Of a stretch of DNA of 64,000 bases, positions 8,399-17,600 are shown in pieces. The stretch's first letter is position 1, and every line of letters starts with the position of its first letter. The translations under genes were made by a program, and so were the position numbers. Under the pieces are notes generated by a model. It saw only the letters and a program-made list of their open reading frames with translations, was not told where the DNA came from and did no database searches. This DNA is from Prorocentrum cordatum (Eukaryota > Sar > Dinophyceae > Prorocentrales > Prorocentraceae): NCBI GenBank assembly GCA_963575745.1, contig CAUYUJ010020549.1, positions 679,222-743,221 of the forward strand. The letters are read 5' to 3'.

Positions 8399-9942
8399 AA
8401 CATGATGGACCCACGAACCCGGAAAGGGATATAGACATGCGCAGCATGGTCACGTTTTCACGATACCCAACTGGGCGACATCTCACAAAACATCCCACGA
8501 GACACCCCGCGAAACATCCCACGAGACACCTCGCGAAACATTCCACGAGACACCTCGCGAAACGTTCCACGAGACACCCCGCGAAACATTCCACGAGACA
8601 CCCCACGAAACATTCCACGAGACACCCACGAAACATTCCACGAGACACCCCACGAAACATTCCACGGGGGTGCGACTGGGTGTGGTCGTGCTGGGGTGTG
8701 GTCGTGCTGGGGTGTGGTCGTGCTGGGGGGGTGGTCGTGCTGGGGGGTGGTCGTGCTGGGGGGTGGTCGTGCTGGGGGTGGTCGTGCTGGGGCGTGGTCG
8801 TGCTGGGGCGTGGTCGTGCTGGGGCGTGATCGTGCTGGGGAGTGGTCGTGCTGTGGTGAGGTCGTGCTGGAGTGTGGTCGTGCTGGGGTGTGGTCTTGCT
8901 GGGGTGGGGCCGTGCTGGGGTGGGGTCGTGCTGGGGTGGGGTCCTGCTGGGGTGTGGTCGTGCTGGGGTGTGGTCGTGCTGGGGTGGGGTCGTGCTGGGT
9001 GGGGTCGTGCTGGGGTGTGGTCGTTCTGGGGTGTGATCGTGCTGGGGTGTGGTCGTGCTGGGGTGGGGTCGTGCTGGGGTGGGGTCGTGCTGGGGTGGGG
9101 TCGTGCTGGGGTGTGGTCGTGCTGGGGAGTGGTCGTGCTGGGGTGTGGTCGTGCTGGGGGGTGGTCGTGCTGGGGGGTGGTCGTGCTGGGGGGGTGGTCG
9201 TGCTGGGAGGTGGTCGTGCTGGGGCGTGGTCGTGCTGGGGCGTGGTCGTGCTGGGGCGTGTCGTGCTGGGGTGTGGTCGTGCTGTGGTGAGGTCGTGCTG
9301 CTGGGTGTGGTCGTGCTGGGGTGTGGTCTTGCTGGGGTGGGGTCGTGCTGGGGTGGGGTCCTGCTGGGGTGTGGTCGTGCTGGGGTGTGGTCGTGCTGGG
9401 GTGGGGTCGTGGGGTGGGGTCGTGCTGGGGTGTGGTCGTTCTGGGGTGTGGTCGTGCTGGGGTGTGGTCGTGCTAGGGTGGGGTCGTGCTGGGGTGGGGT
9501 CGTGCTGGGGTGTGGTCGTGCTGGGGAGTGGTCGTGCTGGGGTGTGGTCGTGCTGGGGGGTGGTCGTGCTGGGGGGTGGTCGTGCTGGGGGGGTGGTCGT
9601 GCTGGGAGGTGGTCCTCAGAATTCAGGTCCCCAGGAGAGGACAATCTATAACACAAAACAAGCGTTTCGCTCGAGACATCCTCACCATTTTCTGAAAAAC
9701 AAGCGTTTCGCTCGAGACATCCTCAAATTTTAATTCGCGGGCGCTCAAAAACAAGCGTTTCGCTCGAGACATCCTCAAATTTTAATTCGCGGGCTCGTTA
9801 TTTATCAGGGAAAAATTCGCCGGCCTCCTTCGACCTCGTTATTTATCAGGGAAAAAATTCGCCGGCCTCCTTCAAGCAGGCACCGGGGGACTATGTTTAC
9901 ATACTAAAAGAGAACCCTGGGCCTCTGCCCTTTCCGGGGAAA
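8399..9942 (+). mobile_element. Composite minisatellite element, copy A
   Basis: Ordered, reproducible structure. (1) A unique leader (8399-8482) starts AACATGATGGACCCACG. (2) A 24-bp tandem array (8483-8667, unit built on CCACGAGACACCCC and ACGAAACATT) follows. (3) A 16-bp minisatellite (about 8672-9610, GTGGTCGTGCTGGGGT) comes next. (4) The tail has three copies of AACAAGCGTTTCGCTCGAG, two of CGTTATTTATCAGGGAAAAA, and a unique end CCCTTTCCGGGGAAA. The leader contains CCCGGAAAGGG and the end its inverse, a short imperfect terminal inverted repeat. Copies B and C share both boundaries. Long frames on both strands here simply translate the arrays. Confidence 0.75.
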
Positions 9943-10344
9943 AACCATTGGGTTTTTCATGTTTTTATGTTAAAATCGCTACGAAAACTAAGGTTTTGGA
10001 AGGATTTCATCTTGCGCGCGCGAGTGTGCACTTCGTGTCATTTTTTGCAAAAGGATTCTTGAAGTTTGGTTATGTTAGAACAAGACATGTCATTTTATAT
10101 TGTTTTTTTGACAGGGAAAGCGGGCGTCAACAAAACAACCGGATCCGGACTCCCCCGTTTTGCCTGAGACTAAAATGATGAAAATGTGGCTGCGGCCTAG
10201 GCGCGGCGAGGGGGGCGTGCACCAGGGGGCCCAACAATAATTATTCTTTAGAAGTAATAATATTCAACAACAACAACAGCAACAACAACAACAACAACAA
10301 CAACACCAACAACAACAACAATAACAATAACAACAACAACAACA
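9943..10344. other. AT-richer spacer and (CAA)n tract
   Basis: Unique, noticeably less G+C-rich spacer between composite copies A and B. It ends in an imperfect CAA array at 10262-10344. A 76-codon frame at 9948-10178 has no recognisable features. Confidence 0.7.
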
Positions 10345-10425: not shown

Positions 10426-10476
10426 CTTTAATTGGTGAGGTTGGCCCAGAGTTGCACGACAACGCGCTTGCCCACA

Positions 10477-11979
10477 AACATGATGGACCCACGAACCCGG
10501 AAAGGGATATAGACATGCGCAGCATGGTCACGTTTTCACGATACCCAACTGGGCGACATCTCACAAAACATCCCACGAGACACCCCGCGAAACATCCCAC
10601 GAGACACCTCGCGAAACATTCCACGAGACACCTCGCGAAACGTTCCACGAGACACCCCGCGAAACATTCCACGAGACACCCCACGAAACATTCCACGAGA
10701 CACCCCACGAAACATTCCACGAGACACCCCACGAAACATTCCACGGGGGTGCGACTGGGTGTGGTCGTGCTGGGGTGTGGTCGTGCTGGGTCGTGCTGGT
10801 CGTGCTGGGGGGGTGGTCGTGCTGGGGGGGTGGTCGTGCTGGGGGTGGTCGTGCTGGGGCGTGGTCGTGCTGGGGCGTGGTCGTGCTGGGGCGTGTCGTG
10901 CTGGGGTGTGGTCGTGCTGTGGTGAGGTCGTGCTGGGGTGTGGTCGTGCTGGGGTGTGGTCTTGCTGGGGTGGGGCCGTGCTGGGGTGGGGTCGTGCTGG
11001 GGTGGGGTCCTGCTGGGGTGTGGTCGTGCTGGGGTGTGGTCGTGCTGGGGTGGGGTCGTGCTTGGGTGGGGTCGTGCTGGGGTGTGGTCGTTCTGGGGTG
11101 TGATCGTGCTGGGGTGTGGTCGTGCTAGGGTGGGGTCGTGCTGGGGTGGGGTCGTGCTGGGTGTGGGGGTGGTCGTGCTGGGGTGTGGTCGTGCTGGGGC
11201 TGTGGTCGTGCTGGGGCGTGGTCGTGCTGGGGCGTGGTCGTGCTGGGGCGTGGTCGTGCTGGGGCGTGGTCGTGCTGGGGTGTGGTCGTGCTGTGGTGAG
11301 GTCGTGCTGGGGTGTGGTCGTGCGTGGTCGTGTGGTGAGGTCGTGCTGGGGTGTGGTCGTGCTGGGGTGTGGTCTTGCTGGGGGGGCCGTGCTGGGGTGG
11401 GGTCGTGCTGGGGTGGGGTGCTGGTGTGGTCGTGCTGGGGTGTGGTCGTGCTGGGGTGGGGGTCGTGCGTGGGGTGTGGTCGTTCTGGGGTGTGATCGTG
11501 CTGGGGTGTGGTCGTGCTAGGGTGTGGTCGTGCGTGGTCGTGCTGGGGTGTGGTCGTGCTGGGGAGTGGTCGTGCTGGGGTGTGGTCGTGCTGGGGGGTG
11601 GTCGTGCTGGGGGGTGGTCGTGCTGGGGGGGTGGTCGTGCTGGGAGGTGGTCCTCAGAATTCAGGTCCCCAGGAGAGGACAATCTATAACACAAAACAAG
11701 CGTTTCGCTCGAGACATCCTCGACAAATTCTGAAAAACAAGCGTTTCGCTCGAGACATCCTCAAATTTTAATTCGCGGGCGCTCAAAAACAAGCGTTTCG
11801 CTCGAGACATCCTCAAATTTTAATTCGCGGGCTCGTTATTTATCAGGGAAAAATTCGCCGGCCTCCTTCGACCTCGTTATTTATCAGGGAAAAAATTCGC
11901 CGGCCTCCTTCAAGCAGGCACCGGGGGACATGTTTACATACTAAAAGAGAACCCTGGGCCTCTGCCCTTTCCGGGGAAA
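10477..11979 (+). mobile_element. Composite minisatellite element, copy B
   Basis: Same leader, 24-bp array (10561-10745), 16-bp minisatellite (about 10750-11650) and tail (11651-11979) as copy A. Leader and tail are nearly identical to copy A while the 16-bp array differs in unit order, implying recent duplication plus rapid array turnover. No target duplication is obvious at its edges. Confidence 0.75.
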
Positions 11980-12939
11980 GAGCATCGATTCCCAAGGACG
12001 ACCTCGAACGACGGAGGAGGACTTCCTCGGATCGCAGGGCAATGGTTGCACCGGGCAAGCTTTGCTAGGGAGATTGCTCCTACGGTGGATGGAATTCTGT
12101 CATCACGAGGCAGTGAGGTCGCCTCGCAGGGTGCCAACGTCTTGGCGCATGGGGCCGACCTGTAGGCAAACCGCTACGATGAAAACACGAAAGAACCGAT
12201 CGGAGTCGTTGATGTACAATCTGACGGTCCAGAGAATGATGAGGTGGCAGATAATTGCGCCGCTGACGCCAGACCTGCCCATTCTAAGCCGCTCGAGGCG
12301 AACTGCCTTTGTGCCCCAGCACCTTACTTTGCTTTGGGGCATGAGTACCGAATGGCTGCTGATGTTTCTTTTTTTCCACCTATGTTTCCCTCCGTTGCCG
12401 CACTTGCAGCAGCAGCACCGCTTTCGATACCAACCCCGGTTGCGGCGACGCAAGGGGCAAGACGATGACGACGACGAAGACGACGACAACGACGACGACG
12501 AGGATTTCGAGGGCGAGGACCAGGACGACGGCGACGACCAAGCAGATAATCCGAACATCCACTCAGACCAGCCAGGTAGATCAGCCAAACCAGACCAGCC
12601 AGCCAGGTAGATTATCCAGACCAACCAAACCAGTCAGCCGGTCGGACCAACGAAGCACAGACCAGACTAAGCAGACCAACCTGCCCGCCTGCCCGGACCA
12701 AAAAAGACTAGCCAGACCAGCCAGCCCAATTAGCCAGGTAGACCAACTAGACCAGGCAGGCCAGCTTTCCGTTCAGACCAGGGAAGCCACGACCAGACTA
12801 AGCAGACCAACCTGCCCAGACCGAGCAGACCAGCCAGACCAGCCAGTTAGACCAGGCAGGTAGACAAACCGGACCATTTTAAGTCTTAAGCTTGATCTTA
12901 AGTCCCAAGCTTTAAGTACACACGGCGCACAGGGCCCAG
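11980..12939 (+). other. Low-complexity interval with one exon-like stretch
   Basis: At 12167-12468 a frame preceded by a good acceptor (gacctgtag, ending 12166) reads ANRYDENTKEPIGVVDVQSD and onward to a stop, with even amino-acid use. It may be an internal or terminal exon of an unrecognised gene. The remainder is GAC-rich (12465-12540) and a CCAGACCAGC-type repeat (12560-12870) related to the satellite at 17.9-19.3 kb. Confidence 0.3.
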
Positions 12940-13394
12940 GGGCCCAGGGCCGGAACCTCGACCACAAATGTGGGGACCGGGGCCCCGGCCCGCCTGTGGG
13001 AGGCTTAAAGTCGCCCCAGCAGGGAGCCCTCAGACAGCAATCTCGGCGGCCCCAAACGGTTTCGAGACACGCCCAAGACTCCGTCCAGGGGTCTTTGGCG
13101 ACGCACGATGTGTTTCAAAGTGCCCCGGAGGTCCGGAGGCCCCCAAGACGCCCCGAGAGGACTTTAAGATGCCGCCCAAGAGCGCCCCGAGAGGACAAAG
13201 TCGTTGATTCTCATTTGTTTTGTTCGATGTTTTTTTGCATTCTCGCTGTTTCGTGTTTCCGGCGCTAAAGCACCGCCCAAGAGGCCCCCCAAACCGCTAA
13301 CAGACGGCCCAAGAGGCCCCCAAGAGGGCCCCAAGACGGCCCAAGAGAGCTCCGAGAGGGCCCCAGAGCCGCCCAAGACGGCGCAAGAGGGTCC
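12940..13394. repeat. G+C-rich 'aagaggcccc' repeat, interrupted copy
   Basis: Matches 16880-17280 over its length (accacaaatgtg.ggaccgg; gacagcaatc.c.gcggcc; atgccgcccaagagcgcc; cattctcg.tgtttcgtgtt). It stops abruptly at 'ggcgcaagagggtcc', and the missing continuation is found at 15490 onward, so 13392-15489 is an insertion into this repeat. Confidence 0.85.
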
Positions 13395-13413
13395 GTAGCC
13401 ATCTTGGCTCAAG
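13392..13413 (+). other. Relict dinoflagellate spliced leader
   Basis: These 22 bases match the dinoflagellate trans-spliced leader at 21 of 22 positions; the only change is C for T at leader position 12. Genomic leader relics in front of ORFs are known in dinoflagellates as marks of mRNAs reverse-transcribed back into the genome. The leader's first base coincides with the point where the host repeat is interrupted. The following 5' untranslated stretch is 86 bases. Confidence 0.9.
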
Positions 13414-13499
13414 CCGCTTCGGCCCGGCAGCGACCCTCGGAGTCGCCAGCGTTCGAGAAGCTCGCCCAGAGGCAGCTTTGAAGTCTCCTCGCCGCCGCG

Positions 13500-13976
13500 A
13501 TGCACGGGGGCCGCGCCGCCGCCTGCCCCCTGCTGCTGCTGGCCACCGGGGCCGCCGGTGACGAGACGTGCGGCGCGGGCGAGTGTGGCGCCGACGAGGC
13601 CGCCTCCTTGGCGCGCAAGGCGGACGTCCACAAGCACGGACAGGGCGCAAACGCAACGGGCACGATATGCGACGCCATCGACGTGCCAGGCCCGATGGCA
13701 AAAGGGTGCAGCTGGATGAAGACTCCTCCCGGCGACGACTGCGCACAAGCCACCGAGGGGGCGTGCATGTGCCGGGACTACAACCTGTACAGGAACGGCT
13801 GCCCGATTTGTGAACCGAACCCGTGCACCAAGCGCTATTGCTTCGACATCGTTGACTTGCCGGGCAACAACTGCCAGTGGATGTGCAACAGCGGGGGCGA
13901 TTGCCAGCAGCAGACGCCCAGCGCTATCGACTGCCGCAATACTAACCAAGCAAATTGCCCGCACCCCTGCCGCTAG
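13500..13976 (+). CDS. Secreted cysteine-rich protein (retrogene)
   Basis: Intronless 158-codon ORF. Residues 1-20 form a signal peptide (Leu-rich core at 11-14, cleavage likely after A-A-G before DETC), so the product is probably exported or sent to the cell surface. The mature part has 17 cysteines. Two internal modules align, at residues 57-91 and 114-145: C, then VDxPG or IDVPG, then [GN]CxWM, then GxDC and Q. An N-glycosylation sequon (N-A-T) lies at 51-53. The start is chosen because it is the first ATG after the relict leader and gives the signal peptide. No named family is recognised; a disulphide-stabilised extracellular protein is inferred. The leader, lack of introns and target duplication indicate origin by retroposition. 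The frame is intact, so it may still be functional. A promoter cannot be identified. Confidence 0.75.
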   Translation: MHGGRAAACPLLLLATGAAGDETCGAGECGADEAASLARKADVHKHGQGANATGTICDAIDVPGPMAKGCSWMKTPPGDDCAQATEGACMCRDYNLYRNGCPICEPNPCTKRYCFDIVDLPGNNCQWMCNSGGDCQQQTPSAIDCRNTNQANCPHPCR

Positions 13977-14377
13977 GGCCGTCTTCTGTGAGGCGTTGGC
14001 CACCGATCCGATGATCTGCGTGCATGTAGGTTTGAAGAGCCGCTCCTTTGCTCTGGGTGACCCCCCTATTGCAGAGGCTTCTGTCGAGACCCTCGACCGC
14101 GGCGCAGCGTTCTTAGTTCGTTCCCTACGTGGCAAAGCGGTGCCGCGCGCGACGCGGTTTCGACAGCGTGGCTCGAGGTGCTGACCGTCGGTTGCGAAGT
14201 CGACTCATCATCGAGTGAAGCGCTCGTGCGATTTATATGCGCACGTGGAGCTGCCTACCAGTGAGCGCCAGCCATCCATTTGTAGGCAGGTCCTCTTTTG
14301 AGACGCGAGAAAGACAGCACTCAGGCGGGGGGGCCCCGCATCGCCGCATCGTTGCCTCCGCGCTCCATCGCGGGGAA
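13977..14377 (+). other. 3' region of the retrogene
   Basis: Unique sequence between the stop codon and composite copy C, presumed 3' untranslated region. No coding signal or clear polyadenylation signal; a GAAAA stretch immediately precedes copy C. Confidence 0.5.
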
Positions 14378-15487
14378 AACATGATGGACCCACGAACCCG
14401 GAAAGGGATATAGACATGTGCAGCATGGTCACGTTTTCACGATATCCAACTGGGCGACACCTCACGAAACATCCCACGAGACACCCCGCGAAACATCCTA
14501 GGAGACACCTCACGAAACAACCCACGAGACACCTCACGAAACATTCCACGAGACACCCCGTGAAACATTCCACGAGACACCCCACGAACAGGCAACCACT
14601 CAACCAGACACCCCACGAAACATTCCACGGGGGTGCGACTGGGTGTGGTCGTGCTGGGGCGTGGTCGTGCTGGAGTATGGTCGTGTTGGGGTGTGGTCGT
14701 GCTGGGGTGTGGTCGTGCTGGGGTGTGGTCTTGCTGGGGTGGGGTCGTGCTGGGGTGGGGTCCGGCTGGGGTGTGGTCGTGCTGGGGTGTGGTCGTGCTG
14801 GGGTGTGGTCGTGCTGGGGTGGGGTCGTGCTTGGGTGGGGTCGGGCTGGGGTGTGGTCGTTCTGGGGTGTGGTCGTGCTGGGGTGTGGTCGTGCTGGGGT
14901 GGGGTCGTGCTGGGTCGGGGTCGTGCTGGAGTGTGGTCGTGCTGGGGTGTGGTCGTGTTGGGGTGTGGTCGTGCTGGGGCGTGGTCGTGCTGGGGTGGGG
15001 TCGTGCTGGAGTGGGGTCGTGCTGGGGTGTGGTCGTGCTGGGGTGGTCCGAACCCTGTGACTTATCGATCGGGTCGTGCTGGGGTGTGGTCGTGCTGGTG
15101 CTGGGGTGTGGTCGTGCTGGGGTGTGGTCGTGCTGGGGTCCTGCTGGGGTGTGGTCGTGCTGGGGTGTCGTGCTAGGGGGTAGAAAAAACAAATTCTGAA
15201 AAACAAGCGTTTCGCTCGAGACATCCTCGACAAATTCTGAAAAACAAGCGTTTCGCTCGAGACATCCTCAAATTTTAATTCGCGGGCGCTCAAAAACAAG
15301 CGTTTCGCTCGAGACATCCTCAAATTTTAATTCGCGGGCTCGTTATTTATCAGGGAAAAATTCGCCGGCCTCCTTCGACCTCGTTATTTATCAGGGAAAA
15401 AATTCGCCGGCCTCCTTCAAGCAGGCACCGGGGGACAGGTTTACCTACTAAAAGAGAACCCTGGGCTTAAGCCCTTTCCGGGAAAAA
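14378..15487 (+). mobile_element. Composite minisatellite element, copy C
   Basis: Third copy, shorter. It has the leader, a diverged 24-bp array (14459-14628), a 16-bp minisatellite (14634-15180) and a tail with three AACAAGCGTTTCGCTCGAG units and two CGTTATTTATCAGG units. It lacks the 'cctcagaattcaggtcccc' segment that starts the tail of A and B. It forms the 3' part of the retro-insertion, and its terminal A run lies directly before the right target duplication. Confidence 0.75.
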
Positions 15488-15489
15488 GG

Positions 15490-17600
15490 GACAGCGCAAG
15501 AGGGCCCCAAGAGGGGCCCAAGAGAGGGAACGCGATCTGACAAATCAAGCTCACCGCCCCACGACGCCCCCGAGAGGCCTCGAGAGGTCCCCGGGAAGCC
15601 CCAAGAGCCCCCCAAGAGGCCCCCAGGAAGCCCCGAAGAGGCCCCACGAGATCTTTAAGAGGCCGCACGCTGCGTTTTAAATTGCCCCGGAGGCCCCCGA
15701 GATGCCCCAAGAGGCCTTTAGGATGCCGCCCAAGAGCGCCCCGAGAGGGCAAAATCGTTGATTATCATTGGTTTTTTCCATTTGTTTATTGCATTTCTTT
15801 TTTTCCTTTCTGCATTTTTTACATTTTTTGCATTATCGCTGTTTCGCGCTTCCGCGCTAAAGCACCGCCCAAGAGGCCCCCGAGAGGGCCCCGAGACGGC
15901 CCAAGAGAGCCCCGAGACGGCCCCGGAGCCGCCGAAGACGGCGCAAGAGGGCCCCAAGAAGGCCCCGTAAGGGGCTCAAGAGAGGGAGCGCGATATGAAA
16001 AATCAAGCTGTCCGCCCCACGGTGCCCCCAAGAGGCCCCAAGAGGCCCCCAGGAAGCCCCGAAGAGGCCCCAAGAGGCCCCCACGAGGCCGCGCGATGCG
16101 GTTTGAATTGCCCCGGAGGCCCCCAAGACGCCCCAAGCCTGCAAGATGCCGCCCAAGAGCGCCCCGAGAGGGCAAAATCGTTGATTATAACGTTTTTGTT
16201 GTATTCTCGCTGTTTCGTGTTTCCGGCGCTGAGGCACCGCCCAAGAGGCTCCCCAAACCGTTAACAGGCGGCCCAAGAGGGCCCCAAGACGGCCCAAGAG
16301 AGCCCCGAGACGGCCCCAGAGCCGCTCAAGACGGCGCAAGAGAGTCCCAAAGAGGCCCCGAGAGGGGCACAAGAGAGGGAACGCGATCTGAAAAATCAAG
16401 CTCTCCGCCCCGCGATGCCCCCAAGAGGCCTCAAGAGGTCCCTGGGGAGCCCCAAGAGCCCCCCAAGAGGCCCCGAGAGGCCCCCAAGAAGCCCAATAGA
16501 GGCCCCAAGAGGCCCCAAGACGGCACCCAAAAGGCTTCAAACCTTTTTCTAAGAGGCACCCGAAGACATGCCAAGAAAATCCCATGGCGACTTCAAGAAG
16601 CAGTCCTGGATGCTCCGAGGAAGCCCCAAGAGGTTCCCAAGAGAGCCCAAGAGGCCCCCAACAGGCCCCCAAGCTGACTCAAGCAGCATCCAGGAGGCCG
16701 GAAAGAGGTTCCCAAGAGCCCAGCGGTCCAGGCGGGGGCCGAACTAACATTTCTAGCCCTGGGCTCCCGGAAGCCCAGCAGGAAGCCCTAAGAGTTCGAC
16801 CGTCTAGCCTAGCTAGAACTTGAGCGCGCGCGCGATGGTTTTATTTTTATACATATAACGGCGCACCTGGCTCGGGGGCCGAGGGCCAGAACCTCGACCA
16901 CAAATGTGAGGACCGGGCCCCGGGCCCGCCTCTGGGAGGCCTGAAATCGCCCCGGGGAGCCTTCAGACAGCAATCCCAGCGGCCTCAGGCGGTCTCGAGA
17001 CACCCCCACGACGCCGCCCAGGGGTCTCCGGCGACGCACGACGCGTTTTAAACTGCCCCGGATGCCCCCAAGACGCCCCAAAATGCCTTTATTTAAGATG
17101 CCGCCCAAGAGCGCCCCGAGAGGGCAAAATCGTTGATTTCCCTGTTTTGTTTTAACAGTTTTTTTTTGCATTCTCGTTGTTTCGTGTTTCCGGCGCTAAG
17201 GCACCGCCCAAGAGGCCCCCACAACCGCTCGAGCCCCGAGACGGCTCCAGAGCCGCCCAAGACGGCGCAAGAGGGTCCCAAGAAGGCCCCAAGAGGGGCA
17301 CGAGAGAGGGAACGCGAACTGAAAAATCAAGCTCTCCGCCCCAAGACGCCCCCCTAGAGGCCCCCAAGAGGCCCCAAGATGCCCCCAGGAAACCCCCAAG
17401 AGGCCCCAAGAGGCTCCCAAGAGGCCCCAAGAGGCCCCCAAGAAGCCCAAAAGAGGCTCCAAGAGGCGCCAAGACAGCACCCAACAGGCTTCAAATCTCT
17501 TTCTAAGAGGCCTCCGAAGACATGCCAAGAAGGTCCCATGACGACTTCAAGAAGCAAACCAGGATTCTCCGAGGAGGCCCCAAGAAGCTAGCTAGAATTT
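15490..17600. repeat. Cluster of 'aagaggcccc' repeats, three further units
   Basis: Units recur near 15719, 16143 and 17096 (with the one at 13168). Each begins ATGCCGCCCAAGAGCGCC, continues into an AT-richer core ending 'ctcg.tgtttcg.g.ttccg.cgct', then a long purine-rich arm of AAGAGGCCCC words. Open frames of 200-330 codons on both strands follow the roughly 12-base periodicity and are judged spurious. Confidence 0.85.

Follow-up and report, generated by a model that had tools for sequence, protein, structure and literature searches.

A probable retrocopy of a trans-spliced mRNA in a satellite array of Prorocentrum cordatum and its sister insertions

Results

Architecture of the locus

We analyzed a 64,000-nucleotide stretch of the genome of the dinoflagellate Prorocentrum cordatum (assembly GCA_963575745.1, contig CAUYUJ010020549.1, positions 679,222 to 743,221 of the forward strand), here called the window. 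In it, a G+C-rich satellite is interrupted by an insert that begins with a relic of the dinoflagellate spliced leader (DinoSL), continues as an apparent copy of an mRNA encoding a Cys-rich protein and ends in a high-copy element. A preliminary description of the window had read all of 13377–15507 as one retrogene; in our comparisons, the retrocopy stops at ~14379, and the remainder to 15487 is an unrelated high-copy element. The features of the locus are as follows:

12922–13391, forward strand: left flank, G+C-rich satellite, host DNA (aligns to units 15664–16150, 16113–16600, and 17000–17500)
13377–13391, forward strand: left target-site duplication GACGGCGCAAGAGGG (14/15 to 15490–15504, flush with the leader)
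13392–13413, forward strand: relic of the 22-nt dinoflagellate spliced leader (21/22 match)
13414–13499, forward strand: 5' untranslated region (UTR) of the retroposed mRNA, starting CCGCTTCGG at the trans-splice junction (comparison with locus L017)
13500–13976, forward strand: 158-codon open reading frame (ORF) for a Cys-rich protein (intact frame; 91% to P0001)
13622–13623, forward strand: inferred exon–exon junction (exon 1 copies on contigs C13467 and C14575 stop matching here)
13977–14379, forward strand: 3' UTR, with a separate terminal module from ~14214 common to type A copies and the end GGGGAAAA (copy comparison)
14380–15482, forward strand: element copy 3 (CATGATGGACCC...CCCTTTCCGGG), with 24-bp and 16-bp tandem repeats (BLAST within the window, end comparison)
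15483–15489, forward strand: AAAAAGG, element end and/or remnant of the retrocopy's A tail (sequence comparison)
15490–15504, forward strand: right target-site duplication GACAGCGCAAGAGGG (14/15 partner of 13377–13391)
15490–17500, forward strand: right flank, satellite resuming, whose units give the empty site (alignment of flanks to units)

Boundaries of the insert

The leader relic TCCGTAGCCATCTTGGCTCAAG differs from the leader DCCGTAGCCATTTTGGCTCAAG by one mismatch, is the sole match with three or fewer mismatches in 64 kb, has no counterpart in 100 shuffles, and begins where the satellite breaks, just as first described. The resumption of the repeat at 15490 held equally well: when the left flank is aligned to the three downstream units listed above, each continues across the break without the insert and thus provides an empty site. 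Both flanking 18-mers of the preliminary description are present, but the true duplication is 15 bases long (14/15), since the last three bases (TCC) of the left 18-mer are also the first three of the leader. Because 25 of 2481 positions in the array (1%) match the left flank equally well, 21 of them in homologous register, the satellite alone yields such an overlap ~1% of the time; in a free downstream search, the top match of the window is the adjacent satellite unit and not its duplication, as expected in a repeat. The A run is likewise real (AAAAA, 15483–15487), but it follows the unrelated element and so is not simply the tail of the mRNA.

Most sister copies carry their own duplications

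A genome search with 13392–13990 returned 14 matches: nine full-length loci (the window included), two partial ones and three confined to the surroundings of the leader. Six of the eight other full-length loci carry the leader; the remaining two (L012 and L016) are cut off inside it with most of the leader lost, as expected from incomplete reverse transcription. Since L014 and L015 have identical flanks over 300 of 300 bases on each side and are thus a DNA duplicate pair, the nine loci represent eight insertions. Apart from satellite likeness in L009, L013, L014, and L015, similarity among the copies starts at or inside the leader and stops at one of two 3' ends that diverge at ~14214, type A (window, L009, L012, L014, and L015) and type B (L010, L011, L013, and L016). 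The copies diverge in a star-like manner, with pairwise identities of 92 to 96%.

Seven of these eight insertions have a duplication of their own, and a copy of a second gene, L019a, brings the count to eight of nine, with lengths of 13 to 19 bases:

Window: 14/15
L009: 16/17
L011: 18/19
L012: 15/17
L013: 18/19
L014: 13/13
L016: 18/18
L019a: 19/19

The duplication scores of the eight positives range from 11 to 19, as compared with a mean of 2.4 and a maximum of 10 for 72 cross-paired flanks. A runs precede the right duplications, with A7 in L009, L012, and L014. The preliminary description had named other repeat relatives with the same leader and ORF as a finding that would overturn it. Such relatives do occur, but they lie at unrelated sites, and most have duplications of their own, in support of independent retroposition. 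The joint presence of leader, ORF, A run, and duplication, presented there as unusual, recurs in this genome. The idea that the first base of the leader proves independent RNA events was dropped, because the duplication may include that base in L009 and L011.

Individual copies differ in detail. The insert in L009 is longer, and beyond the first 3' end it continues through a further Cys-rich stretch and another copy of the terminal 3' module, followed by A7 and the duplication; L009 1517–3320 is thus the copy of a longer transcript carrying the same 3' module twice, and its template was probably a read-through or alternatively spliced transcript. The L016 frame, read from ATGCAT, encodes 159 residues, and in L014 the frame changes close to the end. 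Inspection of the target sites by eye reveals no obvious nick motif. At four of nine insertion sites (window 13177–13391, L009, L013, and L019), both 200-bp flanks contain at least four AAGASS motifs, compared with 7 of 587 background windows; a preference for the CCAAGAGGG satellite is possible on this count, which was looked for after the fact.

A second retrocopied gene

L019a, a different gene found via the leader, combines leader, A6, and duplication. Its parent is present as a tandem array on C15485 and as copies on C14217 and C14050, which carry exons 1 and 2 apart; in the one parent copy read, ~200 bases with inverted repeats separate the exons, and these are missing from the retrocopy, in what appears to be a clean case of intron loss. 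The separating sequence (L072, C15485:14850–15330) is an introner-like intron with inverted repeats. The L019a frame has 401 residues, with a match to F5/8 type C just under the cut-off (28.1 versus 28.2 bits). The parent's acceptor ends in GGCTCAAG, of which the last eight bases equal those of the leader, and is perhaps an older, decayed leader relic.

The retroposed mRNA, its product, and its parent

The ORF is open over all 158 codons, as originally noted, and its product is, judged by eye, probably secreted. The closest relative is P. cordatum P0001, which UniRef names ShKT domain-containing, a naming that rests solely on that label: no Pfam family was found for the window protein, P0001, P0002, or P0004, and no PDB relative. 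P0001 is identical to the frame of retrocopy L013 on C14611, a warning that one of the proteins catalogued for this genome comes from a retrocopy. The ORF was not found among viral contigs. Substitutions private to single copies (eight copies) fall 24/23/25 by codon position, with a nonsynonymous to synonymous (N:S) ratio of 50:22 (2.3), versus 2.6 expected without selection; the window has seven N and one S, and L013 has 2:6. No sign of purifying selection was found in these private substitutions, which look neutral; the open ORF therefore reflects mostly youth and is no evidence of function. At the 3' end, GGGGAAAA occupies 14372–14379 and is followed by the element; its four A's may be genome-encoded, as genomic copies of the module show them ahead of bases other than A as well.

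Sequences resembling exon 1 of a parent lack the leader. GCGCAG lies immediately 5' of CCGCTTCGG, with no leader, as read for L017 and for the exon 1 copy on C13467 (95.7% over 209 bases). A more distant exon 1 copy lies on C14575, and both this and the C13467 copy leave the match at 13622 into GC. According to the consulted portion of a published genome account, P. cordatum DNA is 59.7% G+C, and 51.4% of its donors are GC (PMC10666404), values that the window fits. Exon 2 was not found in the 8.9 kb after the C13467 exon 1 or in the next 10 kb, a search that a diverged exon could escape. The intron-bearing parent proposed in the preliminary description is thus partly in view, as exon 1 copies that break off at the inferred junction, but was not recovered complete. 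The type A mRNA closes with a separate module of 165 bases that has many copies in the genome. Some of these follow AG, and most of those read continue into GCTCCGC after GGAGAAAA. Derivation of the window copy from a processed mRNA is indicated by these comparisons. A further locus, L068 (C1481), holds the 165-base module five times in an array with spacers that terminates in A10; the array looks like a copied spliced transcript, and a duplication was looked for there and not found.

The high-copy element

The interval 14378–15487 recurs twice in the window, at 8399–9943 and 10476–11979 (BLAST of the insert against the window), with element boundaries as follows:

8401–9938, forward strand: element copy 1 (BLAST within the window)
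10479–11975, forward strand: element copy 2 (BLAST within the window)

The first 80 bases of the element have 298 candidates in the genome, and all 40 that were scored are identical. We surveyed the ends at 30 loci plus the window, which gave 21 copies readable at both ends and 16 more starts without a readable end. AA precedes CATGATGG in 21 of 21 copies, and the right side is A-rich; duplication scores average 2.4 in these 21 copies versus 1.8 for cross pairs. Three copies (L036, L044, and L047) sit on the A tail of another element copy. Across the window copies and loci L022–L051, the element has fixed ends, A-rich insertion sites, and an 11-bp subterminal inverted repeat, CCCGGAAAGGG, recognized by eye. 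Four folds of the element's ends did no better than shuffles, neither an Rfam nor a tRNA match was obtained, a protein search with its repeat frame found nothing among 8000 candidates scored, and its 5' end was not found among viral contigs. The element was most likely inserted later into the A tail of the retrocopy. This is the simplest order, because L012 and L014/L015 stop at the 3' position where the window copy stops, with A7 leading straight into the duplication.

A LINE-like family that carries the leader

Two further leader-bearing loci that we read, L074 (C19586) and L077 (C12535), have a perfect 21-base leader core adjoining CCT repeats and an ORF with, by eye, a zinc-finger and coiled-coil look. 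A search with 421 bases from the start of the L077 element (40 of 106 candidates scored, 42 matches listed) gave at least 21 listed matches of ~400 bases or longer whose start falls within the first four query bases, in the CCT repeat that precedes the leader (query 18–39); only two of these long matches were read. L078, the frame of 1133 residues that lies downstream of L077 and is open on both sides, gave matches to RVT_1 (E 8e-6; 26.1 bits against a cut-off of 29.6) and to zf-RVT (E 8.9e-4; 20.3 bits against 27.5), both under the curated thresholds, and a PDB search with it returned nothing. The family looks like a long interspersed nuclear element (LINE) whose genomic copies often begin with the leader. 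In the window itself, no LINE was recognized, and 84 frames picked from the 195 of at least 150 residues gave no Pfam match. Elsewhere in the window, 3–639 and 971–1609 form a direct repeat of ~640 bp (93.6%).

Discussion

Taken together, these comparisons of sequence make it very probable that 13392–14379 is a retrocopy of a trans-spliced, polyadenylated mRNA placed by LINE-type insertion, that the element entered its A tail later, and that the ORF is young and still open, with no sign of selection. In this scheme, a LINE-encoded endonuclease would have nicked the satellite, and the mRNA's A tail would have been primed at the nick; reverse transcription would have continued as far as the leader's first base, and the target would have been duplicated when the second strand was joined. 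Later, an element from a distinct high-copy family that occurs at A-rich sites would have jumped into the A tail, parting the retrocopy from its right duplication. The recycling of a trans-spliced mRNA by LINE-type machinery, as first proposed for this locus, is supported beyond the window by the long duplications at eight of the nine insertions. Generality is claimed here from the loci named.

Several observations weigh against this explanation. L010 has no duplication, and neither do eight further leader or leader-like sites show a convincing one (L019b, L020, L021, a second site in L010, and L074–L077; search lengths were 606 nt for L019b, 532 nt for the second L010 site, and 1.1 to 1.5 kb for L074–L077). 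The L021 site carries four mismatches to the leader; a candidate duplication in L075 was discounted as the match falls inside a CT microsatellite. A complete intron-bearing parent was not found: neither the 19 kb that follow exon 1 on C13467 nor the 35 of 35 candidates scored supplied an exon 2 outside the retrocopies. Two extra G's separate the A run from the right duplication in the window. The 11-bp subunits of the satellite also let the right flank fit the repeat ungapped from 15497, a register that has no duplication; we prefer the register with the duplication, because the alternative would leave the 6/7 match of GACAGCG to chance and because the sister copies carry duplications. Among the 21 element copies, three exceed the cross-pair 95% value of 5 (L038 with 8/8; L036 and L044 with 7/7, both A-rich runs), and the element may make short duplications of its own. 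Finally, that a LINE made the retrocopy, and which LINE, is something that we infer.

The alternative that fares best is a single chimeric event, in which reverse transcription starts on element RNA and jumps to the A tail of a leader-capped mRNA, placing both under one duplication. The fixed 5' end of the element does abut the 3' end of the messenger, with the duplication outside both, and a 14/16 match lies 57 bp ahead of the start of copy 1 (random 31-mers, 11/1000; wider search, 79/1000). Chimeras with 14-bp direct repeats are described for Magnaporthe in the consulted part of that report (PMC2104539). We nonetheless regard this event as unlikely, as duplications of 13 to 19 bases were looked for and not found in the 21 element copies read at both ends. 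Moreover, 15 of the 21 right flanks were searched up to 1.4 kb upstream (six were too short), and the strong hits besides the window copy (L031, L025, and L037) lie in repeats; L031 has a satellite unit that looks like an empty site lacking a duplication. The 16/17 match in L031 was dropped as an element duplication on account of this satellite.

Integrases of long terminal repeat (LTR) elements leave duplications of 4 to 6 bases. The 13 to 19 base duplications and 3' A runs described here are unlike their products, making it most improbable that LTR-type (Ty1/copia) machinery produced the retrocopy, even though LTR elements are favored in print: the retroelement type that mediates mRNA recycling in dinoflagellates is stated to be unknown, with LTR elements preferred, in the text seen of the review PMC6050394, and the retrotransposon-like expressed sequence tag clusters of Oxyrrhis are given as all Ty1/copia in that of PMC3942190. 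For viral insertions, LINEs have been inferred from their neighborhood (PMC10235124, as excerpted). That a gene with leader-like letters was simply duplicated as DNA, or caught in a rearrangement of the satellite, would account for the shared L014 and L015 flanks, but is scarcely credible given that the other copies have no unique flank in common, that similarity is otherwise confined to the leader-to-3'-end span, and that the satellite breaks cleanly around an empty site in the window.

LINE-type insertion remains the favored origin, and a tentative extension, of fairly low probability, is that the LINE-like family, itself a leader-bearing trans-spliced mRNA, makes the enzyme, with the common leader assisting completion of the 5' junction and thereby making every trans-spliced mRNA a good template. 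Four of the long matches listed speak against such a role, as they begin at query 35–38 and so lack the leader; two others begin at 148 and 192. Were the leader an integral part of the retroposition machinery, the large number of mRNAs recycled by dinoflagellates would be accounted for.

Leader-tagged dinoflagellate retrogenes are already well known: retrogenes with relict DinoSL were reportedly treated by Slamovits and Keeling in 2008 and by Song in 2017, both cited in PMC6050394. They are also the subject of Haro 2025 (PMC12014239, in the portion consulted), and a literature search of limited coverage, in sources seen in part, found no report of target duplications at such genes. The anatomy of both junctions in several copies of one gene makes the question of the enzyme directly testable from the assembly alone, and it points to LINE-type insertion. 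In addition, the leader shows to the base where the template began at its 5' end, information that ordinary processed pseudogenes cannot provide.

The window copy resembles DinoSL retrogenes, abundant in dinoflagellates, in its leader relic at the 5' end of an mRNA copy, and differs from the published accounts, as far as the consulted text goes, in that the leader is flush with long target duplications and accompanied by A runs in several independent copies. Mammalian LINE-1 processed pseudogenes are similar in being full-length or 5'-truncated mRNA copies with a 3' A run, long duplications, and neutral evolution; here, in contrast, the template has a trans-spliced leader, the enzyme is a candidate only, and no TT/AAAA-like nick motif is obvious by eye. 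Like the chimeric retrogenes of Magnaporthe, in the part of PMC2104539 consulted, the insert juxtaposes unrelated sequences within a single pair of direct repeats; unlike them, its second component lacks long duplications elsewhere and is more likely a later insertion. On these comparisons, the anatomy favors LINE-type insertion for leader-tagged retrocopies.

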